DNA of 40,388 nucleotides from the NCBI GenBank assembly GCA_938001965.1, contig CALLBC010000039.1:1-40388 (forward strand), given 5' to 3'. The translations under genes and the position numbers were made by a program. The notes below the pieces were generated by a model that was not told the origin of the DNA, ran no database searches, and saw only the letters and a list, made by a program, of their open reading frames with translations. Every line of letters begins with the position of its first letter. The first letter of the stretch is position 1. Below are positions 2,823 through 37,584 of the stretch, piece by piece. Source of the stretch: an uncultured Bdellovibrionales bacterium. Lineage in GTDB: Bacteria > Bdellovibrionota > Bdellovibrionia > Bdellovibrionales > UBA1609.

Positions 2823-5576
2823 TTAAAATGTACCAATGGATATATGTATGCGGGCTTCTGACTCTTGTTCGCCAAATAGTCGGTTGGCTTTAATTCCATA
2901 GTCTAATACAAATGGGCCAAGAGGAGTATTATATCGTAAGCCAATACCATAAGAGTGTCGAAGCGGGTCTTCAAAATCAAAGCCTTGAATATTTACTATC
3001 CCTGCATCCCAGAAAAAGACTAAGCCAAAATCACCTAAAACTGAAAATCGCAATTCAGTTTTAAACAAACCATAGCTTGCATATTTTGTGTCAATAACCT
3101 GTTCCCTTCGGTCAATCTCAAGGCTGCTTGGAATACGGTCAATATCGCTTTTACCACCATAGCCCCGAACAGTTGAAAGCCCACCTAATATAAATAAATA
3201 GTCTTCAGGTATACCACCGCCAACAAAATTTCCTATTTTTGAAGCATAGCCACCTCTTAGTGAGTTGGCCCAAACTATTTTTGGTGTGAAGAGCTTAAAA
3301 TAAGTTGTGAAATTTGCTTCTGTCTTAACAAAGTGAGCTGTATCAGAGGCCCCAAGAAGTGGGCTTGAGTAGCCAATGTCGAGAGTAGAATATATTCCCT
3401 CACTAGGCAGGAAAACATTGTCACGAGAGTCATATGTCAGGCTAGGGCCAATGCTGGTGACATCAACGCGCTTTTTCTGGCGGGTTGTTTCAAGAGTTTG
3501 CGATTGGGAATCTAAGCTCCATATGGTCCATAGCCCTTTTAAGTTTTTAGATAAGTCTTTTTCAATTAAAAAACCAATTCTTCGGTTGAGGTTAGATTTT
3601 AGAGTAGCTCCATCACCAGTGAGGTCCCTTTCAATTTCAGTTCTAATTCTTCCTCGAGTCAAAGTATTAAATAAATAAGGCTCCACATAGCTTCCTGATA
3701 CTTTCCACACTTGGTCCAGAAAGTTTTTATCTTCAAACCTTGTTTCGGTGTCTATTCTTGCATTAATTGCACGGGCAGTGCCAAATAAGTTAATATATGA
3801 GGCTCCTGTATAGCCTCGCAAGTTAAAGCCACGCTCATTACTGGCACCAATACCCACTTTAAGTAGGCCGGGCTTACGTTCGCTCACAGTAATTAATAAA
3901 TCACGATGACCAATATTAGTGTTTGGGTCAGATGTTCTAATGTCTACTGAGGTGAACAGACCTAATCGTGTTAAGTTCGTTTGTGCTTTTACTAGGCGAT
4001 CAGCAGATAGAATATCACCTGATTTTAATTGAATTTCACGGAGTATGACATAGTCTTCTGTGAAGTCGTTACCCTCAATGCGAATATCTTTAATTTTAAT
4101 TTGTGGTCCTTCAGAGATACTGTAGGTAACATCTGCTTGGGTGTTATTTTTAAAGTATTTAATAAAGCGCGCGTTTTTAGGGTATTTCATTTCTAAAAAA
4201 CCTAATGAGTAATAATACTTTGAAATATCGTTCAATGATGTTTCAAAGAGCTTTAAGTTTAGTATTGAACCTTTAGCTAATGGTATCTGACTCAGTATTT
4301 CATTGTCGGTGATAATTTTATTTCCCGCTATTTCAATGGAGTTGACATTAGTTTTGGGCCCTTCATTGAGTATGATAGTGATTTCTACTAGATAGTCTTT
4401 TAAGTATTTTACTCTTGTTGAGATATGTTTTGCGTGTAAATAACCACTGTTCTTCATGTCGGTGACCAAATTCTCGATTCCCTTATCAAGGCTTTCAGGG
4501 GTATAAATATTATTACTAAAAGGCTCAGGGCTATTTTCAAAGAGGAAATCTTTATATAGCTCTCGGCTCGTTGAAAAGCGACCACCAAACTTAACATCTT
4601 TAATTTTTACGAGTTCACCTTCATTAATATTAATGGTAAACTTTTTGATATATTCTTTTTCAATAGTTTTTTGGTTTAATTTAACTTTAGCTTTAATATA
4701 TCCTTTTTCTTGGTAGAGGTTCTTTAGTTTTTCTAATATTTTATTAACTGGATCTTTAGACCAGTTACTTTCATAAAGATCATTGATTTCACTGGTTAAG
4801 TTCGATCGAGTGAGTTTTTCATTTCCGTTAAAATAAAATTCGTATTTAAAGGGATTCTTTACAGTGTATGTTATTTCGGCACTATCTTTAGATTTACTGT
4901 AGTTGGGAGTGCTAGCATCAATATCCACAAAATAGTATTGGCGATCTTTAAGGTATTTATTTATTCGATTATTTATTTTGACTAGCATTTGTTCTGATAG
5001 AGGATCATTTAAATACTTTTTCACATTCAATCGCAATGATTTGTTAAGAGCTTTATTGTTAGATATAAAGTTGATCTTACTAATTTTACAAACTTCATTT
5101 TCTTTAATTTTAATTTTTAGTTTAAAAAATTGATTTACATCTCCATCGTTAATGGCATCTACGCTAAATAAGGTATTGAGGTAGGAACGATTAATATATG
5201 CATTTTTTAGACGACGCATAGCTAAGTTAATTTCTTCTTTAGAAAAAGAAGAGTTAATTTTTAGTTTACTAATTTTCAGAAGCTGTGAATCACTGAAAAC
5301 ATCATTACCTGTAAATTCTATGGCTTTGATTTTTTTTGCAGGTATGGCTAAAATTGAAACTTGGTTATTAACTAAGCTTGCTTTAACGGACTCATAATTT
5401 TTAGTTTTTGAGAGTTCAGAAACAGCAATGTCTAAAATAGAATAGTCGGGTTTTTTTAAAGTAAGAGTTGGGTATCTTTTCAAGATACTTTTTTGATCCT
5501 CTTCTGAGATATCCTGAAAGGTGACTGCCTGGGCGTCAAAGCTGAGTAAAAATAGAGCAGTTAAAAAAAGTTTCAT
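2823..5576 (-). CDS. tamA: Omp85-family outer-membrane assembly protein (TamA/BamA-like), six POTRA-like repeats
   Basis: Outer-membrane beta-barrel insertase or translocation channel. The ATG at 5574-5576 is preferred: it begins a normal signal peptide (MKLFLTALFLLSFDAQA) and lies 4 nt after the tamB stop. An in-frame ATG at 5612 would add 12 residues and overlap tamB. Numbered from the longer start, six POTRA-like repeats can be traced at about residues 95-180, 176-262, 256-335, 336-425, 423-503 and 505-580. Several begin with the typical IxxIxFxGN pattern. Residues 582-929 are the surface-antigen/D15 barrel, with the VRGYGG motif near 815-820 and a C-terminal Phe, as expected of a beta-signal. 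E. coli TamA has three POTRAs and BamA five, so this is longer than both. Coupling to tamB argues for the TAM role. Confidence 0.9.
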   Translation of the reverse strand: MKLFLTALFLLSFDAQAVTFQDISEEDQKSILKRYPTLTLKKPDYSILDIAVSELSKTKNYESVKASLVNNQVSILAIPAKKIKAIEFTGNDVFSDSQLLKISKLKINSSFSKEEINLAMRRLKNAYINRSYLNTLFSVDAINDGDVNQFFKLKIKIKENEVCKISKINFISNNKALNKSLRLNVKKYLNDPLSEQMLVKINNRINKYLKDRQYYFVDIDASTPNYSKSKDSAEITYTVKNPFKYEFYFNGNEKLTRSNLTSEINDLYESNWSKDPVNKILEKLKNLYQEKGYIKAKVKLNQKTIEKEYIKKFTININEGELVKIKDVKFGGRFSTSRELYKDFLFENSPEPFSNNIYTPESLDKGIENLVTDMKNSGYLHAKHISTRVKYLKDYLVEITIILNEGPKTNVNSIEIAGNKIITDNEILSQIPLAKGSILNLKLFETSLNDISKYYYSLGFLEMKYPKNARFIKYFKNNTQADVTYSISEGPQIKIKDIRIEGNDFTEDYVILREIQLKSGDILSADRLVKAQTNLTRLGLFTSVDIRTSDPNTNIGHRDLLITVSERKPGLLKVGIGASNERGFNLRGYTGASYINLFGTARAINARIDTETRFEDKNFLDQVWKVSGSYVEPYLFNTLTRGRIRTEIERDLTGDGATLKSNLNRRIGFLIEKDLSKNLKGLWTIWSLDSQSQTLETTRQKKRVDVTSIGPSLTYDSRDNVFLPSEGIYSTLDIGYSSPLLGASDTAHFVKTEANFTTYFKLFTPKIVWANSLRGGYASKIGNFVGGGIPEDYLFILGGLSTVRGYGGKSDIDRIPSSLEIDRREQVIDTKYASYGLFKTELRFSVLGDFGLVFFWDAGIVNIQGFDFEDPLRHSYGIGLRYNTPLGPFVLDYGIKANRLFGEQESEARIHISIGTF

Positions 5577-5580
5577 TAAC

Positions 5581-8500
5581 CTATTTGAACTCAAGTTTGT
5601 ATTCGAAATCAAGTCCTAGGGCTTCACCAGAGTCATTATCACTATTTGTGGTGTCTTTTCCTTCTTCTTGGGTAAATGAGCCAATAATACCCAGGTTTCT
5701 GTTTAATTTATACTCTAGTTTAAAGGAGTTTGTGGCTTTGGTTTCAATAGTTCGACTAGCAGTAGCATCAAATTTACGTCCAATCTTCTTTTTCAGAGTC
5801 ACAACGGGTATAGGCTTACTTTGATCATCGTTATAAGTGGATGATATATCTAAATCTATCCCTAGCTTGTCGTTCATACCCCTTGTAAGGCCTAGTTTCT
5901 CTTTAATAATTGATGACCCGGCATCAAACATAAGTTGTTCAGTTTGGTCTTGTGGGCCAGCATCATTATCAATGTCGGTAGAGGTGTAGCCAAGAGCTAC
6001 AAGGTTAATAATTTCACTTTCAGGCAGGCTTGGGCTGCTTTGGAAGTTAAATTTGGGGTCATTCCCTGAGCCCAATACAGTAATACTTATATCATAGTCT
6101 TGTATTCTACCTTCCGCATCCACATATAAAAATGGGTTTGAGGGAGGCTGGTCCTCATATGTGAGGTATCCAGTTTTTAGTTGATATTCATTATTCCTAA
6201 ATAAAATAGTACCACCGTTTTTAAAGTCTATTCGTCCTTTTAGGTTTGGCTTTTGGGGTGTATTTGTAACTTTTAGTCGGCCTAGTAAAGTAGTTTGTAA
6301 TTCAAACTGGGTTGTAACAATTTTAGTTGGAATTGGGATCTCAATATTGGCCACAACATTCAATTGTATTGCATTTTCTTTTGCAGCTTGTGACTCTTTT
6401 GGGGCATATTTGCTAATTTTAAATTTGGCATTTTTGGAGCCATCAAGAGAAATAGACTTATCAATATTTCCCTTTTTAATATTGGTGCTCGCAGTTAATA
6501 GGTAAGGTAGTTTAGCTCCTTTTAGTTCAATATCACCATCAAAAACTAAATCAACACCTTCAATAGATTTAAAGTTACTATTTTTTATGCGACCTTTAAT
6601 ATCTAATTTAGGGAATTGATCATTGAACTGTATGAGTCCGTTAGCATTAATTGTACCGTTCCCAAATTCACCAGCCAATGTATTTACGAATAATGACTTG
6701 TTTTTAACGGTTATTTCCGACTGAATGGCTTGGATTGGCTGAGACAAACTAAATAACTTTAAGGTTGAGTCTTGGATATAGATACTGCCAAACATATCAA
6801 CATCATTTAATGGCCCTGTAACTCCCAATGAGACTGATGTTTCCCCTTTGAACTCTTCAACTAGAGATGAAAATATTAAACCCACTCCTAAATCTAGTTG
6901 GCCTTTGGCTTTTAAGTTTAGATTTTTAAGCAAAGAGTTAGTAGAGGTTAATTTTAGGTCAGTCCTTTGCCCTTTAAAGTTAACATCAAAGTCACTAAAG
7001 CGACCATCGGCAAATTCAATTTTTAGTGGTTTTTCAAGGTAAATAGAATAGGCTCCTCGAAGAATAAAAAAGCTATTAATGTTTATTGAGCCCCGAGTTT
7101 TATTGAAGTCTTTGTTTGGGATGACTAAATCAGTACTGCCATTAAAGTTAGTGAATAGATTAAACTTTTTAAAATGAGGAAATATACCTTCAAGTATATG
7201 GCTGAAATTCCAGTTTTGTGCTTTAGTTTTAATATAAGCATCATTTTTCTTGAATGGATAAATAACATTAGAGGTAAACTGTTGTTTATTTAGTGAGATA
7301 TTAGCGTTTAATTCATTTTTGTCTAATGTCAGCTTAACATATGAATCCTTGTGGACCTTATCTCCCAGTGAAGAATTTTTAAGTTTGCCACTAACACTTA
7401 GTTTTGGGTCACTAATATAGCCTGTTAGGCTAGCATCAATTGCAATTTGACCATCGATCTCAGTTTTTAGCGCTTCAAAGTGCTCAGAGTTTTTTAGCTG
7501 TAATGCGGGCACATTCCCTTTTAGGCCGAGACTTCCATCGCGATTAAGCCTTCCTTTTACATTAAAAACACTATCAGCTTTTTTAAGGTACACTTGATCT
7601 GTTTTTATATTCCCAGTTCTGCAAGTGAGTTTAACTTTGGCTTCATCAAAGCTTTCTTTATTGATAAAGCCATAAGAAAATTTTGAATCAAGATCGAAAT
7701 TTAAGTCTTGTAGTTTTAAAGGGCCCCAAAGTTTAAACTTTGCAACGCCTGTTGAATCTATATTGAAGGGGAGTGGTACTTTTTCTTTGATCGCTTCTTT
7801 CACGTCTTTAAGTTCGAGCTTAGTAATATCTGACTGTACTTGGATCGCGCTACCAGCAATATCAACATTGACCGTGGAGTTATGTGTGCTTTCGCCAATT
7901 ATTCCTATAATATTACTTAAATTTAGGTTTCCTTTTTTATACTCAACATCAGTTATGAAGTCACCAAGCTCCCAGCCTTTAAGTCTGCAGTCAAAACACT
8001 CAGCTTTGCTCACTAGCGCTGCAGTTTTTGAATCACCTGTCACTGAGCCAACAATATCTACTTTGCCTTCAAGCTCTAAATCAACTAGGTTATCAATATC
8101 TTTTTTAGCATCGAGAACTGTGCCATCGAAGTCAACATTGAAGCCAGTATCGTATATAGCGGCCCCTTTAGCCATTGCAAAAGAGTCATTAATAGTGACT
8201 TTGCCATCATAGCTTATAGATTTATGGGTAATAGTTACTAGAGCATCACCAGCAATGTTTTTAACCTTAATTAAAGACTTATCAGGGGTACTCTTACTCA
8301 AGTCAAATTCACTTTTTGTTACATTAGTATCACAAATAATTTTTACTCGCGGTCGGAGTTGCCCTTTGCAATCAGCCACTCCCTTTGCTTTTAATTCAAC
8401 TATTGTGCTTGGTTTCTTTATGGGGTTAAGCATATTTAAAAGGTTCCAAAGGCTAAAATGCTTAATTTTTAATTTAGTCTTAACTTCGGAGTTGCCAGTT

Positions 8501-9546
8501 AGGTTGAGAGTTAGAGAGCTATTATCAATTTGACCAACTTTATTTTTAATAGAAAAACTTTTTATATTTAACTGATCACCATCTAAAATGGCGTTTACCC
8601 CTAAGTCACCAATGTAGTATTTATCCACTTTGAGTCTTTTTGTATTGAATTTAAAAGAGGGTTTGCCAATAGACATATTACTTTTATTGTAGTTAACATC
8701 AAACTCAACCAGGCCTGTGGAACTTGGCAATTGAGTGCCTGGGATAAAAGCTTGGGCTATGCCTAAGGCCTCTTGAGTAAGCAGTTGACCAGATGTGTTT
8801 ATATTTAGGTTATCAATATCATTGTTTAGCCAATCTCCATCTAATTGGCCTAATAGATTTAGGTAAGACTGGTCTGAATGTTTGGCTTCAAGTTTAGAAA
8901 CTAAGATTCTTTTGTCTTCAAGTAAGAATTTTGAATTTATTGAAAGGGCAAACTTTTTGTTATTGTTACTTTGCTTAATTAAAAGTTTTGGAGTGCTTAC
9001 ATTTGCAATCAATGCATTTTTTAAATTCTCACAAGAAGCTTTAATGCTTTCAGCATGTAAGGAGAACTTAAGTGGGACTATCTTCAAAAATAACTGAACC
9101 TTGTCTAGATTAACTTTTTCAATTGGAACTTTACTTAGGAACTCAAAACTGTTGAATTTACTTTCCTGTCGCGAGTCAAATTTTTTGATGATAATATTTA
9201 AGGTTGAATCGTTTATATTGATGTTGCTAATATTGATATTGCCTTTAAATAAGTCGATCGTGCTGAGCTCAACCTCTAAGTTTTTAACAACAAATGGGGA
9301 AAGAAAGCCTTTTGCCTTTTTGATGGGGGTCACTTTTAATTCATTTACATATAAGCTTAGTGGGACCCAATTAAAACCAATGTTTTGGTTTTCAAGGTCA
9401 AGCTTAACATAGTCTGAAGCTTGTTTTTTAATTTCTTTAATTATTAATGGTTTTATTTTGGGTATATAATATTTTGAACTAAAACCGATGCCTGCGCTGA
9501 TCAATGGGAGAACAATTGATAAAAATATTAGCCATGCTCTACTCAT
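5581..9546 (-). CDS. tamB: Translocation and assembly module subunit TamB
   Basis: Large AsmA-like protein spanning the periplasm, anchored in the inner membrane, that works with TamA in outer-membrane protein assembly and belongs to the lipid-bridge superfamily. The protein is 1321 residues from the ATG at 9544-9546. A TTG one codon upstream is also in frame but overlaps the upstream stop. One N-terminal membrane helix (residues ~4-24) is followed by about 1100 residues of beta-rich repeats. The conserved C-terminal DUF490 region is clear: GTILFRNNEYQLKTGYLTY, then DYDISITVLGSG and LPESEIINLVALGYTS. E. coli TamB is about 1260 residues, so the length is normal. The start overlaps the stop of the upstream TPR-like gene by one base (TGATG), and tamA follows after 4 nt, so the three genes look translationally coupled. 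Confidence 0.93.
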   Translation of the reverse strand: MSRAWLIFLSIVLPLISAGIGFSSKYYIPKIKPLIIKEIKKQASDYVKLDLENQNIGFNWVPLSLYVNELKVTPIKKAKGFLSPFVVKNLEVELSTIDLFKGNINISNININDSTLNIIIKKFDSRQESKFNSFEFLSKVPIEKVNLDKVQLFLKIVPLKFSLHAESIKASCENLKNALIANVSTPKLLIKQSNNNKKFALSINSKFLLEDKRILVSKLEAKHSDQSYLNLLGQLDGDWLNNDIDNLNINTSGQLLTQEALGIAQAFIPGTQLPSSTGLVEFDVNYNKSNMSIGKPSFKFNTKRLKVDKYYIGDLGVNAILDGDQLNIKSFSIKNKVGQIDNSSLTLNLTGNSEVKTKLKIKHFSLWNLLNMLNPIKKPSTIVELKAKGVADCKGQLRPRVKIICDTNVTKSEFDLSKSTPDKSLIKVKNIAGDALVTITHKSISYDGKVTINDSFAMAKGAAIYDTGFNVDFDGTVLDAKKDIDNLVDLELEGKVDIVGSVTGDSKTAALVSKAECFDCRLKGWELGDFITDVEYKKGNLNLSNIIGIIGESTHNSTVNVDIAGSAIQVQSDITKLELKDVKEAIKEKVPLPFNIDSTGVAKFKLWGPLKLQDLNFDLDSKFSYGFINKESFDEAKVKLTCRTGNIKTDQVYLKKADSVFNVKGRLNRDGSLGLKGNVPALQLKNSEHFEALKTEIDGQIAIDASLTGYISDPKLSVSGKLKNSSLGDKVHKDSYVKLTLDKNELNANISLNKQQFTSNVIYPFKKNDAYIKTKAQNWNFSHILEGIFPHFKKFNLFTNFNGSTDLVIPNKDFNKTRGSININSFFILRGAYSIYLEKPLKIEFADGRFSDFDVNFKGQRTDLKLTSTNSLLKNLNLKAKGQLDLGVGLIFSSLVEEFKGETSVSLGVTGPLNDVDMFGSIYIQDSTLKLFSLSQPIQAIQSEITVKNKSLFVNTLAGEFGNGTINANGLIQFNDQFPKLDIKGRIKNSNFKSIEGVDLVFDGDIELKGAKLPYLLTASTNIKKGNIDKSISLDGSKNAKFKISKYAPKESQAAKENAIQLNVVANIEIPIPTKIVTTQFELQTTLLGRLKVTNTPQKPNLKGRIDFKNGGTILFRNNEYQLKTGYLTYEDQPPSNPFLYVDAEGRIQDYDISITVLGSGNDPKFNFQSSPSLPESEIINLVALGYTSTDIDNDAGPQDQTEQLMFDAGSSIIKEKLGLTRGMNDKLGIDLDISSTYNDDQSKPIPVVTLKKKIGRKFDATASRTIETKATNSFKLEYKLNRNLGIIGSFTQEEGKDTTNSDNDSGEALGLDFEYKLEFK

Positions 9547-10592
9547 CAAGACAGTTTTTCCCTCCAGCTATGCAGTATTTCATAGGCAGAACGATAGCCC
9601 GGCCTTGAGTTGACAATTGCTGTCATTACTTCTGTGGCTTCAACTTGGCTACCTATAACCCATAGAGCTTGTGCTTTTTGGTAAAGGCTAGCAAATTGAA
9701 TCTCGGGATTGTTATCGTTATTTGCATGTAAGCTATCAGCAAGATCTATGCATTCAAAATATCTTTTTGATAAAAATAAAAGTTCAAGTAAAAACCAATC
9801 TCTTTCAAGGCAATGAGGAGCTAGTTGAATACAAGCTAAGGCAAAGCTATAAGCTTCCAATTGGTAAAACAAAACCGTGTAATCAAAGTACTTCTTGTCA
9901 CCAGCATGAGTTTCTTCTTTAATTTTTTCAAAAATTGCAGTACAGCTATTGAGGTCATTTTGTGTCAGTTGTGATTTTATATATTGATCGTAATCTTCTT
10001 CAAAACTTGATTGTTTAGGTTTGGAGAATAGATCAAGTGCGAGTTTTTTATCAATGCGCTCAAGGTGCGAGGCGAGTTCAGGGTTTTCGGGGTCATAAAT
10101 TTTGAGTTGATTGAGTACATTAACCTCTTCTTCAAGAATATTTTTCCCTTGGATAAAGTTAAGTTTGTCCCATAGAAGCTTAATTTTTTTTGAAGCCTCA
10201 TAGGATAAAGAGTCTCTTAGCTCATTAATTTTTTGCTCAAACTTTCTATTCAGAAACATATGCGCTGGCGAAATAAGCGGAGTTTTCCCGTGCACTTTAA
10301 AATAATTGAAGAGCTTATCAAACTCATCGTCATTTAGTTTTTCATTGCAGGCGACTAGAGCGTCTAAAAAAAGTTCCCATGGAAAATATTTTTCTTTGCT
10401 TGGCCACTCACGAAGAATTCTGAACACATCTTTTTTTGAACCCGCATTAAGAGCAAAATGTAAGTAAGAAATTTGTGCTTTCTTACTGAGTTTTTTATCA
10501 TGAAGTGTTTCAAGGCAAGAGGAAACAACCTCCTGAATTGGTTGCCCTTCAGAAAGCATAAAAGAAATTTCAATTTCAACTTTGTTTGGCAA
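9546..10592 (-). CDS. Helical-repeat (TPR-like) protein, first gene of the tamBA operon
   Basis: Protein of 348 residues with no signal peptide or membrane segment, so probably cytoplasmic. It is almost wholly alpha-helical. Repeating 30-40 residue helix pairs, such as LFYQLEAYSFALACIQLAP and ALWVIGSQVEATEVMTAIV, look like degenerate TPR units. The start is TTG at 10590-10592, with an AGGGGA ribosome-binding site 8 nt upstream. Its stop overlaps the tamB start by one base, so it is co-transcribed and probably co-translated with tamBA. I do not recognise a specific family. The operon position suggests a scaffold or a factor linked to envelope assembly, but nothing in the sequence shows a direct TamB partner role. 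Confidence 0.75.
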   Translation of the reverse strand: MPNKVEIEISFMLSEGQPIQEVVSSCLETLHDKKLSKKAQISYLHFALNAGSKKDVFRILREWPSKEKYFPWELFLDALVACNEKLNDDEFDKLFNYFKVHGKTPLISPAHMFLNRKFEQKINELRDSLSYEASKKIKLLWDKLNFIQGKNILEEEVNVLNQLKIYDPENPELASHLERIDKKLALDLFSKPKQSSFEEDYDQYIKSQLTQNDLNSCTAIFEKIKEETHAGDKKYFDYTVLFYQLEAYSFALACIQLAPHCLERDWFLLELLFLSKRYFECIDLADSLHANNDNNPEIQFASLYQKAQALWVIGSQVEATEVMTAIVNSRPGYRSAYEILHSWREKLS

Positions 10593-20599: not shown

Positions 20600-21340
20600 T
20601 TATAACTTTATTGAGATATGTGACCAATGCTCGGTTGAAAGTATTGGTGTTAGGTTAGCTTTTAGCTTTAGTAATATTCGGCCATGTGGGTGGCCGTAGC
20701 GTTTTTTTCTGGCTGAAACAATACTGTATTTTAAGTTAGGCAACTTATTGATTAAGTAATTAGAGTTGCTGGTTATGCTCCCATGATGCCCTAATATAAG
20801 TATAGAAATATTTTTTAAGGCATTTTTCTGCGCCCAATAAGATTCATTTTTCTTTAAACTGTCGCCCGGATTTAACACTACATCCTCGATAACAAAAACC
20901 TTGCTGAGCTCATTTTTATTTTTAGTGTTCCTAAATTTTGGCTTATAAATTGTTTTAATTGGTGAATTCTTGTAGCTTTGGCAAACTGGAATAGTACGTG
21001 TTTTCACCTTAACATGTTTATAAAAATTTTTATTTGGGTTCACTACACAGTATGAATTCACTTGCCTAGTAAAGGTCTTGTAAAAATTTATATGATCATT
21101 GTCTGAGTGTGAGATATAAATCCAATTAAACCGTTTTTTACATCTTTTAAGAACTTCATTTATTGGCGTGCGTTCTCCGCCCATGTCCATATGGAAGCAG
21201 TCATTGTTTTTTATATAAGTTAACCATTGGCCTTGTCCAACATTCCAAATGATTAATTGGGGTAGATAATCATGATCAATTCTGTGTGGACATAGAATTT
21301 GTATAACTAAAAACAAGAAGCTCAAGTATAGAATTTTCAT
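20600..21340 (-). CDS. ComEC-type metallo-beta-lactamase domain protein (detached C-terminal part)
   Basis: Protein of 246 residues matching the C-terminal MBL domain of ComEC/Rec2. An N-terminal hydrophobic stretch (residues 3-17) suggests membrane attachment or export. The MBL signatures are IIWNVGQGQ (usually DVGQGD), MDMGGERTP, the metal motif HSDNDH (residues 78-83) and ILGHHGS. In DNA uptake this domain is thought to degrade the non-transported strand in the periplasm. Its ATG overlaps the stop of the upstream ComEC membrane gene (ATGA, 21337-21340), so both are translated together. The domain is normally fused to the membrane part; here it is a separate polypeptide. Confidence 0.85.
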   Translation of the reverse strand: MKILYLSFLFLVIQILCPHRIDHDYLPQLIIWNVGQGQWLTYIKNNDCFHMDMGGERTPINEVLKRCKKRFNWIYISHSDNDHINFYKTFTRQVNSYCVVNPNKNFYKHVKVKTRTIPVCQSYKNSPIKTIYKPKFRNTKNKNELSKVFVIEDVVLNPGDSLKKNESYWAQKNALKNISILILGHHGSITSNSNYLINKLPNLKYSIVSARKKRYGHPHGRILLKLKANLTPILSTEHWSHISIKL

Positions 21341-22221
21341 GTAGTATTAACTTGGGATTGATCTTTTATGATTAAGCAAAGGTTAAGGATGAGGGCATAT
21401 CCCCAACTTAAAAAAATGAATGAGTGATTATTACTGTGCTTAGCGCTGAGAGGAGTAGAGGGTTGTATAAGTTCAAGTAGTTGATAAAAAACAGTATAAA
21501 AAAGGTCTAAGATAATATTTAGATTTGGGATAAAGAATGCTAGTAAGTTTAATGGCAAGATAAAGATGGAGACTAACCCACTAATAAAAAAGCCACTGAG
21601 TGCTGAAAGTGGATTGGGCTCAGTAAAAGTAAGTAAGATTGGGAAAAGACTAAGGAAAACCACAAGTGTTTTTGCCGGACTATTTTTTTGAGTCATACAT
21701 AAGGCAGCAACCCAACTCATAGGTAGGGATATAGACTTTAAATAGATTGGGTTAGTAAGTGTTGTAATTATAGCAGTTGTGAGAAGAAGAATATTTTTAC
21801 TTAAGTTAAGCTTTAATAATTTATTTAAATCCAAATTAAGTTGTTGAACAAAGGCTCTAAAGATGGGGGCTGAAAAAAGGCAAGTTAAGGTGTAAGTAAA
21901 TAAAAATATAATTGTTGTTATACTTGCGGCCCACCTTGGGAGTGCATATTGGATTATTTTTCTGTAAAAAGAGAGATGAGCCCCTGAAACAACAAAGATA
22001 TGTATTAGGCCGTTTGAAATAAATAAATCTTTAATTTTTGGGTTGGTAATTTTTTTTCCGCAGATTAAGGCCGAAACTTCATCAAAGTAGTCATAGTTTT
22101 TTTTAGCTTGAGTTATACAAGACTGATGTAGTTGTTGAGAGAGTTTTTCAGATTTTTTTTGTAAGTTGATTATTGAAATCAATATACAAAATAAAACACA
22201 AAGAGCATATTTATAAAGCAT
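21337..22221 (-). CDS. comEC: ComEC/Rec2 competence membrane channel domain (detached)
   Basis: Multi-pass inner-membrane protein (294 residues), the core of the DNA uptake channel. The family hallmark is present as NGLIHIFVVSGAHLSF (canonically GLSHLLAVSGLH), preceded by the conserved VSALICGKK region. Some eight or more hydrophobic helices follow. The usual N-terminal OB-like domain is absent: the protein begins with one helix (YALCVLFCILISIINL) and passes almost at once into the competence domain. The MBL domain is a separate overlapping gene. Together with dprA 3.4 kb away it suggests transformation ability, though pilus and ComEA parts are not in view. Confidence 0.88.
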   Translation of the reverse strand: MLYKYALCVLFCILISIINLQKKSEKLSQQLHQSCITQAKKNYDYFDEVSALICGKKITNPKIKDLFISNGLIHIFVVSGAHLSFYRKIIQYALPRWAASITTIIFLFTYTLTCLFSAPIFRAFVQQLNLDLNKLLKLNLSKNILLLTTAIITTLTNPIYLKSISLPMSWVAALCMTQKNSPAKTLVVFLSLFPILLTFTEPNPLSALSGFFISGLVSIFILPLNLLAFFIPNLNIILDLFYTVFYQLLELIQPSTPLSAKHSNNHSFIFLSWGYALILNLCLIIKDQSQVNTT

Positions 22222-35510: not shown

Positions 35511-35542
35511 CCTTTACTCTTCTATAATTTTGTAATTATTGA

Positions 35543-35572
35543 AAAGCGTTTCACTATGAAACGCTTTTTTTT
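35543..35572 (+). terminator. Strong Rho-independent terminator after the PpiD-like gene
   Basis: AAAGCGTTTC (35543-35552) pairs perfectly with GAAACGCTTT (35558-35567) around a 5-nt loop, followed by a run of T. It separates the ppiD-like gene from the protease gene, which therefore needs its own promoter. Confidence 0.95.
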
Positions 35573-35618: not shown

Positions 35619-35645
35619 TTAAGTTTTAAAACTTTAGTCCGATAA
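35619..35645 (+). promoter_or_regulatory. Sigma-28 (FliA)-type promoter before the subtilase–PilZ gene
   Basis: TTAAGTTT (35619-35626), an 11-nt spacer, then TCCGATAA (35638-35645). The enterobacterial FliA consensus is TAAAGTTT-N11-GCCGATAA, so each half matches at 7 of 8 positions with exact spacing. It is located between a strong terminator and the GTG start 26 nt downstream, exactly where a promoter is required. The motif is seen in sequence; use by a flagellar sigma factor is inferred. Confidence 0.7.
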
Positions 35646-35670
35646 ATAATTTATAAAAGAGGTCCGTATT

Positions 35671-37584
35671 GTGATAAAAAAAGTATTCTTAATAACTTTA
35701 TCTGTGTTTCTATTTTCTGCTTACTCCTATGCTCAAGAGTATGTTCCTGGTGAAGTTATAGTTAAAATGCGTAACACTGGCGATTCAGGGTCTACCAATA
35801 GGTTTCATCAAAAAGCACAAGCTGAAAACGGAATGGAACTAAAGCAAGCTTTCTCAGAAATGAAAGTTTATCATTATAAAATCAATGACCAAGATTCAGT
35901 TGAAAATGCCATTAGTAATTTAGAGCTTGATCCAGATGTGGAATTTGTCGAGCCTAATTATATTGTCCACAAAGCAACTGCTTTTGATAATAATGTTGAG
36001 CATGTAAGCCCTGAGCGAGTGGCTGAAATGAGAAATAATGAATTAAGAGATGAGGCTGAGGCCATTGGTTATCCAATAAGAAACCCAGGGCAAAATTCAG
36101 GTAACAACAAAGGTGTAAATCAAAAATTAGGAGCTCTTTCGACCTTTGTTCCTGTGGTTGCAGTTATTGATACTGGTTTAGATATTAACCATGATGTTTT
36201 TGTAGATAGTGGTGCCATTTGGCAAAATAGTGGCGAGATACCTGGAAATGGTATTGATGATGATGGCAATGGTTATATTGATGACGTGAATGGGTGGAAC
36301 TATATTACTAATAGTGGCTTTATGCATGATGATGAAGGTCACGGGACTCATGTGTCAGGAATTGTGTTAAAAGCAGGGATAGATATTTTTGCAGACCCTG
36401 TAGATCCTTCGCCAATGAAAATCATGCCATTAAAGTTTTTAGATCATACCGGGAGTGGTTCAACTTCAGCAGCCATTGCTGCAATTTACTATGCTGTAAA
36501 TAACGGTGCCAATGTTATTAATAACTCTTGGGGCGGATCAGGTTATAGTGAATCCCTTCATGCAGCCATTGCTTATAGTTATGATAATGGTGTGGCCTTT
36601 ACAGCAGCAGCAGGAAATGCAGGCACTAATAATGACGGTGCTCCACTTTATCCTGCTAGTTATGATGTACCTCATATCATGTCAATTGCTGCAACAACGG
36701 CAACAGACTACTTAGCTTCTTTTTCTAACTTTGGTAAATCAACAGTAGATTTAGGCAGCCCTGGTTTATATATTCTAAGTACATGGCCTTGTTCGGGTTC
36801 AAGTTGTGGTCATAGTACCTCTTCGGGAACAAGTATGGCTGCACCTCTAGTGGCTGGTTTTGCTGCCATGATGCTAATTGAAGCACCAACCATGCTCGGT
36901 TATCAAATTAAAAGTATTTTATTTGGCGAGTCCGACTATGTTTCAGCTTTAGATAATAAAATTCTAACTGACAGCCGTATAAATGGAGCCTCGTCAGTGG
37001 CGTTTTCTAAAACAGCTGCCATTGACCCGGATCAACCTGCATATACTTTTGTTCCATTAAGATCTCTATCTAGTGCTGATTCAGGTGGTGGCTGTGGATT
37101 AGTAAAACGAATGTATGAAAGTAAGCAGCCTCCAAAAATTGGGCGAGGTGGTGCGAAAGCTCCAGTAGGTATATCTTGGTCATTACTTATGGTTTTAGGC
37201 TTGTTTGCAGCTCCATTTGTTGTAGCCAGTGTTATGCGCACGCAAAGTAAAGAGCCGCAAGTGAATCGAAGAAAGCATGAAAGGTTTAGCATTGAGTCCA
37301 GTGTGTCACTAAATGTTAATGGTGAAAACGTGAAAGGTTCAGTGAGCTGCATCTCTGCCGGTGGCGTTCAATTATCCACAGGAGCTCTTCTTGAAAAGGG
37401 TGGAGTTGTGAAAATGGTGATTAGCAGTCCAGATGGCAGCGAGCAAATTGAAGTGGCTGGTCAGATTGTTTGGGAAAAAGACAAAGAGTCTTATGGTGTA
37501 CAATTTAAAAATGTACAAGAGGCTGTGAGTTCGCAAATTAATGAGTGGACAGAGTCATTAGAGCCAGAAGCCAGTGAATCATAA
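35671..37584 (+). CDS. Subtilisin-like serine protease with transmembrane segment and cytoplasmic PilZ domain
   Basis: A 637-residue S8-family protease. GTG start with an AAGAGG site. Signal peptide MIKKVFLITLSVFLFSAYSYA; an I9-type propeptide (about 22-100, ending DVEFVEPNYIV); a catalytic domain with Asp167 (VAVIDTGLD), His224 (GHGTHVSG), oxyanion Asn316 (AAAGNAG) and Ser388 (GTSMAAPLVAG). Residues 465-500 hold a glycine-rich GGGCG patch, then one hydrophobic helix (501-521) and basic residues. Residues ~533-620 form a PilZ domain: RRKHERF supplies the RxxxR motif, while the second motif reads CISAGG instead of (D/N)xSxxG. Topology predicts an outside protease and a cytoplasmic c-di-GMP sensor on one chain. 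It is preceded by a sigma-28-like promoter and flanked by terminators, so monocistronic. Substrate unknown. Confidence 0.9.
   Translation: MIKKVFLITLSVFLFSAYSYAQEYVPGEVIVKMRNTGDSGSTNRFHQKAQAENGMELKQAFSEMKVYHYKINDQDSVENAISNLELDPDVEFVEPNYIVHKATAFDNNVEHVSPERVAEMRNNELRDEAEAIGYPIRNPGQNSGNNKGVNQKLGALSTFVPVVAVIDTGLDINHDVFVDSGAIWQNSGEIPGNGIDDDGNGYIDDVNGWNYITNSGFMHDDEGHGTHVSGIVLKAGIDIFADPVDPSPMKIMPLKFLDHTGSGSTSAAIAAIYYAVNNGANVINNSWGGSGYSESLHAAIAYSYDNGVAFTAAAGNAGTNNDGAPLYPASYDVPHIMSIAATTATDYLASFSNFGKSTVDLGSPGLYILSTWPCSGSSCGHSTSSGTSMAAPLVAGFAAMMLIEAPTMLGYQIKSILFGESDYVSALDNKILTDSRINGASSVAFSKTAAIDPDQPAYTFVPLRSLSSADSGGGCGLVKRMYESKQPPKIGRGGAKAPVGISWSLLMVLGLFAAPFVVASVMRTQSKEPQVNRRKHERFSIESSVSLNVNGENVKGSVSCISAGGVQLSTGALLEKGGVVKMVISSPDGSEQIEVAGQIVWEKDKESYGVQFKNVQEAVSSQINEWTESLEPEASES

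Follow-up and report, generated by a model that had tools for sequence, protein, structure and literature searches.

Locus of the subtilase-PilZ gene

The window, which is the whole stretch of 40,388 nucleotides analysed here, is contig C39 of a 3.55 Mb genome. It contains a gene for a protein that combines a subtilase with a PilZ domain (Table 1). The gene upstream of it encodes, by Pfam, a SurA/PPIC-type peptidyl-prolyl isomerase and ends in an intrinsic terminator. Between this terminator and the GTG start codon of the subtilase-PilZ gene lies the sequence TTAAGTTT-N11-TCCGATAA, at positions 35619-35645, which matches the Escherichia coli FliA consensus TAAAGTTT-N11-GCCGATAA at 14 of 16 positions with exact spacing and is the sole match to it within the window at two mismatches or fewer. 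It agrees also with the FliA consensus of the Bdellovibrio bacteriovorus attack-phase promoters (PMC3627812). The first-pass annotation had described a near-consensus site in the gap between a strong terminator and the GTG codon, and its coordinates, the number of matches, the N11 spacing and the location are all confirmed. A sigma-70-type promoter for the protease gene was ruled out, as none is present in the gap from the terminator to the GTG.

Table 1. Features of the subtilase-PilZ gene and its upstream region (positions in the window)
Feature	Position	Strand	Basis or remark
Intrinsic terminator of upstream SurA/PPIC-type peptidyl-prolyl isomerase gene	35541..35569	+	stem of 13 pairs with a loop of 3, followed by a T run
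-35 element TTAAGTTT, FliA type	35619..35626	+	TTAAG as in B. bacteriovorus attack-phase consensus (PMC3627812); octamer identical in G002 and G003
Spacer, 11 bases	35627-35637		between -35 and -10
Partial spacer element AACTTTAGT	35630..35638	+	GAC-N4-GT in most orthologues; column counts over 47 orthologous sites
-10 element TCCGATAA	35638..35645	+	sequence; CCGA[AT]N[AG] in 64/77 orthologue upstream regions
Expected transcription start (predicted)	35652	+	about 7 bases past -10, from sigma-28 promoter geometry
Ribosome-binding site GAGG	35659..35662	+	8 bases ahead of GTG start at 35671
Subtilase-PilZ gene, 637 aa, GTG start	35671..37584	+	Pfam 133, 62.6 and 42 bits
Peptidase S8 catalytic domain	36151..36924	+	PF00082, 133 bits; D, H and S motifs intact
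Predicted transmembrane helix dividing protease from PilZ	37171..37239	+	peak hydropathy of 2.27 at aa 504 (19-residue span)
PilZ domain	37264..37551	+	PF07238, 62.6 bits (cut-off 22.5)

The protein begins with a signal peptide (about residues 1-21, by eye), which is followed by a fervidolysin-type prodomain (22-96) and the peptidase S8 domain (161-418). The C-terminal part is comprised of one hydrophobic helix (about 501-523) and the PilZ domain (532-627). The catalytic residues, namely the D of DTGL, the H of HGTHV and the S of GTSM, are present in 33 of 33 aligned members. The PilZ RxxxR motif, RKHER here, is likewise kept in all 33. The [D/N]xSxxG motif reads CISAGG here, with the D/N missing, and a D or N two positions before the S is found in none of the 33 aligned members, all of which have [C/S/T]-x-S-x-G-G. 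In a search of PDB sequences the only PilZ chains matched were 'type IV fimbriae assembly protein' entries (E 0.004-0.01). Entries of this kind include some PilZ proteins not known to bind c-di-GMP. The earlier proposal that the PilZ domain ties the protease to c-di-GMP is therefore a possibility only: the domain stands by its profile and its RxxxR motif, but the D/N of the other motif is lost throughout. The altered motif cautions against reading c-di-GMP control off the name of the domain.

Hydropathy, from which the topology was derived, would place the protease domain probably in the periplasm and the PilZ domain in the cytoplasm, in which case PilZ could modulate the protease from the cytoplasmic side. 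The LapD-LapG system of Pseudomonas is an example of periplasmic proteolysis controlled by c-di-GMP. By analogy, the window protein would also relay a nucleotide signal from the cytoplasm to a protease in the periplasm; it is, however, one polypeptide with a subtilase and PilZ, whereas LapD-LapG employs a cysteine protease and a degenerate GGDEF-EAL protein. A domain survey reports subtilisin and PilZ in a single protein of B. bacteriovorus, NP_969350.1, by architecture only (PMC2605481), and the window protein resembles it in this architecture, by which alone the two were compared. A search of named genomes with a close homologue as the query yielded no more than three distant subtilases, none of them from Bdellovibrio.

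Conservation of the promoter-type site

The genome-wide test for chance consisted of pattern searches with reversed patterns as controls. With two mismatches or fewer, 16 matches are found in the host genome against 6 for the reversed control, so that the mismatch count alone is not decisive. With one mismatch or fewer the numbers are 5 and 0 and, across 99 genomes, 107 and 28 (totals summed by hand). In the local test, the 150-base upstream region was shuffled 2000 times with dinucleotides preserved, and no shuffle reaches the matrix score of the site, the weights of the matrix having been set by hand from two published consensus sequences.

Homologues of the protein are present in 98 of the 99 genomes searched and are mostly full-length. 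Upstream regions of 77 orthologues were usable and were scored against shuffles and the reverse strand; those of L114, L118, L119, L121 and L122, whose start codons were unplaceable by the script, were excluded from the statistics. A score of at least 9 is reached in 47 of the 77 regions (shuffle mean 2.4, maximum 6; reverse strand 11), and GAC-N5/6-CCGA occurs in 48 of them compared with 0.9 in shuffles (maximum 5). The reverse strand also exceeds the shuffles (17 against 4.2 at a score of 8), which indicates that part of the excess is a background of intergenic DNA. When 47 sites with a 6-base gap are aligned, the information per column is 0.98 bits within the element and 0.17 and 0.15 bits in the flanks, the GAC and CCGA columns being invariant by construction because the alignment was chosen on them. 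The promoter-type site at the protease gene is real and conserved across the order, a judgement that comes from its conservation at the orthologues (48 of 77 against 0.9, with unconserved flanks) and not from the mismatch count. Equally good matches scattered at random, which the first-pass annotation had regarded as damaging to its proposal, are not the picture obtained, given the excess over reversed controls and the conservation at the orthologous gene.

The form of the site varies with distance. Orthologue upstream regions were read in two genomes of the same genus, G002 and G003; their -35 octamer and CCGATAA match those of the window exactly, and their spacers differ. Outside the genus, most orthologues have a weak -35 element (TNAA, with the G missing) one base further off, with a spacer of 12; thus, FliA may be only part of the explanation. 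An element GAC-N4-GTC, overlapping the -10, is common in most orthologous promoters. The window site differs from most orthologues in having A in place of G in this element and a -35 spacer of 11, not 12; together with the C at 35639 its spacer element reads AAC-N4-GTC, inside which there is an inverted repeat, ACT-TT-AGT, at 35631-35638. Four aflagellate relatives differ from one another in their upstream regions: the site is clear in G005, reduced to the -10 in G022 and degenerate in G018 and G024. No more than about 6-15 bases separate the end of the -10 from the start codon in L042, L061, L065, L123 and L224, so that the mRNAs there could be leaderless or the starts misplaced.

FliA in the host genome and in relatives without flagella

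The first-pass annotation had made its reading depend on a fliA gene in the genome, and one is present, scoring 267 bits with TIGR02479 (FliA/WhiG) and 263 bits with NF005413 (FliA), both above the NCBIfam cut-off. It shares a contig with the FlhA gene. The suggested check, whether other sites precede flagellar genes, was run as a pattern search. Similar sites precede four flagellin genes of the host genome (for example, TAAAGCTA-N11-ACCGATTA and TAAAGTTT-N11-GCCGAGAC), and an intergenic site lies just upstream of one FliL-like gene (23.5 bits, slightly below the Pfam cut-off). Across the order, flagellin promoters read TAAAG-N15-CCGATGA or near it. A further intergenic FliA-type site of the host genome lies upstream of a second PilZ gene, which scores 25.8 bits. 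This arrangement recalls the PilZ gene bd0064 of B. bacteriovorus with its FliA promoter (PMC12622784, PMC6606864). Attack-phase pilZ genes of B. bacteriovorus include Bd2524, Bd2545 and Bd3100 (PMC2797640). The sequence TAAAGTTGARACA...CTGCCGATAA, which in the host genome sits ahead of this second PilZ gene, is common to many genomes (L009:1501-2101; L168, L169, L171, L173-L178). In three genera, genes for lipoproteins with a DILWVIDNSGSM-type domain (VWA/MIDAS-like, by eye; L218, L220, L227) are found 80-84 bases behind FliA-type sites bearing GAC-N4-GTC.

In B. bacteriovorus, some two thirds of the mapped attack-phase promoters, those of protease genes included, are proposed to be under FliA regulation, and the consensus of these promoters is TTAAG-N16-CCGATA (PMC3627812). 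The TAD pilus operon (flp1) of B. bacteriovorus is under FliA control, experiments in E. coli confirmed that the flagellin and flp1 promoters of B. bacteriovorus and B. exovorus depend on FliA, and deletion of fliA in B. bacteriovorus failed (PMC5430801). The window site resembles the attack-phase promoters of strain HD100 (Karunker et al. 2013, PMC3627812) in TTAAG and CCGATA, and the two genomes have in common a FliA gene and non-flagellar targets that include proteases. The site departs from those promoters in the gap between TTAAG and CCGATA, which counts 15 in the window and was published as N16; moreover, the orthologues outside the genus mostly have a weaker -35 and the extra GAC-N4-GTC, and the transcription start is predicted here but mapped in HD100. 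The window site equals E. coli FliA class 3 promoters in spacing, but T replaces A in the second position of the -35 and G in the first of the -10, and its target is non-flagellar.

Twelve relatives (G004, G005, G012, G016, G017, G018, G020, G022, G024, G031, G032 and G033) have neither flagellin nor FlhA. FliA scores above the cut-off in 11 of them, with a partial match in G012, and is therefore not tied to flagella in this group. The 12 genomes contain 12 sites with one mismatch or fewer and no control matches, and roughly half of these sites lie ahead of genes. In G016 a FliA-type site precedes a gene for a Flp-type pilin, identified by eye from DESGQGTAEYVLILVAIV (L270), which accords with the FliA control of the flp1/TAD operon (PMC5430801). 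In G017 a FliA-type site is found 8 bases ahead of a large protein, the beginning of which resembles Cas12a by eye (L272:205-2199).

The full-length protease-PilZ protein is present in every flagellated genome of the set that is at least 90% complete, compared with 2 of the 12 aflagellate ones, an association that is confounded by genome reduction. Among the aflagellate relatives, G022 keeps the protease-PilZ protein, the PilZ domain of G018 has diverged, and the proteins of G005 and G024 end past the membrane helix. The assignment of the protease to a flagellar or motile phase, made from the window, agrees with the FliA site, with fliA, with the flagellin-gene sites and with the full-length protein in flagellated genomes, but it is too narrow. 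'Attack or surface phase' fits better than 'motility', because FliA is a global attack-phase regulator in Bdellovibrio and outlives flagella here.

Transcription of the protease gene and alternative readings

The site is very probably a FliA (sigma-28) promoter, the sole recognisable promoter of a one-gene unit, which by analogy would put the protease in the attack-phase programme. FliA-RNA polymerase would start near position 35652 and produce a short-leader mRNA of the protease gene, whose product would be a subtilase that is exported, anchored in the membrane and equipped with a PilZ domain at its C terminus. The protease would then join a FliA-driven programme of flagellins, pili, adhesins and proteases, as in B. 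bacteriovorus; the attack phase itself is assumed for the host from Bdellovibrio. Probably, the protease belongs to the FliA-controlled attack-phase gene set, and the known regulon is extended with no new kind of control.

It is highly improbable that the resemblance arose by chance, with a housekeeping or ECF-type promoter driving the gene. The 6 reversed-pattern matches at two mismatches or fewer would allow it, but the orthologous site is conserved in many genera while spacers and flanks change, and the gap is without a sigma-70-type site. The first-pass annotation had pictured a two-level motility gene, with FliA acting in transcription and c-di-GMP acting via PilZ. This is consistent with the FliA site, with the PilZ score of 62.6 bits and its RxxxR motif, and with the distribution of the full-length protein between flagellated and aflagellate genomes. 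Half of the model is supported, namely the conserved FliA-type promoter. Motility is too narrow a description of what FliA, an attack-phase regulator in Bdellovibrio (PMC3627812, PMC5430801), controls in a group where it outlives flagella, and the c-di-GMP step is unproven, with the D/N lost in 33 of 33 members and the PDB matches being solely type IV fimbriae assembly proteins. As a whole, the model appears unlikely.

A second dimeric regulator might act together with FliA by binding the GAC-N4-GTC inverted repeat over the -10, its repression or activation setting the timing and FliA alone being insufficient. Columns on which the alignment was not selected are conserved too (G at -2 in 44 of 47 sites, A at -18 in 44 and C at -12 in 37), and 32 of the 47 sites have T at -1, where FliA prefers G. 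GAC-N4-GTC lies one base nearer GATAA in some flagellin promoters and ahead of a VWA-like lipoprotein gene, and there the deviation from the FliA -10 again preserves the repeat. The genome-wide counts nevertheless give little or no excess for GGAC-N4-GTCCGATAA (13 against 5 in the control), CTGGAC-N5/6-CCGATAA (15 against 9) and the -35 plus the element (21 against 20), the window's own site retains just AAC-N4-GTC, and the conserved bases may be mere FliA-preferred spacer DNA; we regard such a factor as quite unlikely. The same counts led us to set aside the idea of a regulon across the genome marked by CTGGAC or GGAC-N4-GTCC. A broader combination has been considered, in which, throughout the order, a composite promoter (a FliA -10, a weak -35 at 12 bases and GAC-N4-GTC read by a second factor) would drive a one-piece inside-out signalling protease whose PilZ domain senses either a signal other than canonical c-di-GMP or that signal in another manner, under FliA as an attack- or surface-phase sigma factor independent of flagella. 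This, too, is rather improbable.

With FliA as the probable regulator, a conserved, hitherto uncharacterised membrane protease of Bdellovibrio-type bacteria joins their probable FliA regulon and offers a clean target for studying how predators time surface proteolysis. The presence of FliA in flagella-less relatives opens to direct test the published proposal that this sigma factor turned into a regulator of the cell cycle in the group.

Elsewhere in the window, a ComEC-like sequence at 20600-22221 on the minus strand is found as two overlapping reading frames, for the N-terminal part and the MBL part, which is either a split gene or a frameshift. Also on the minus strand, at 2823-9549, an Omp85/POTRA protein adjoins a TamB protein, forming a TAM-like pair.
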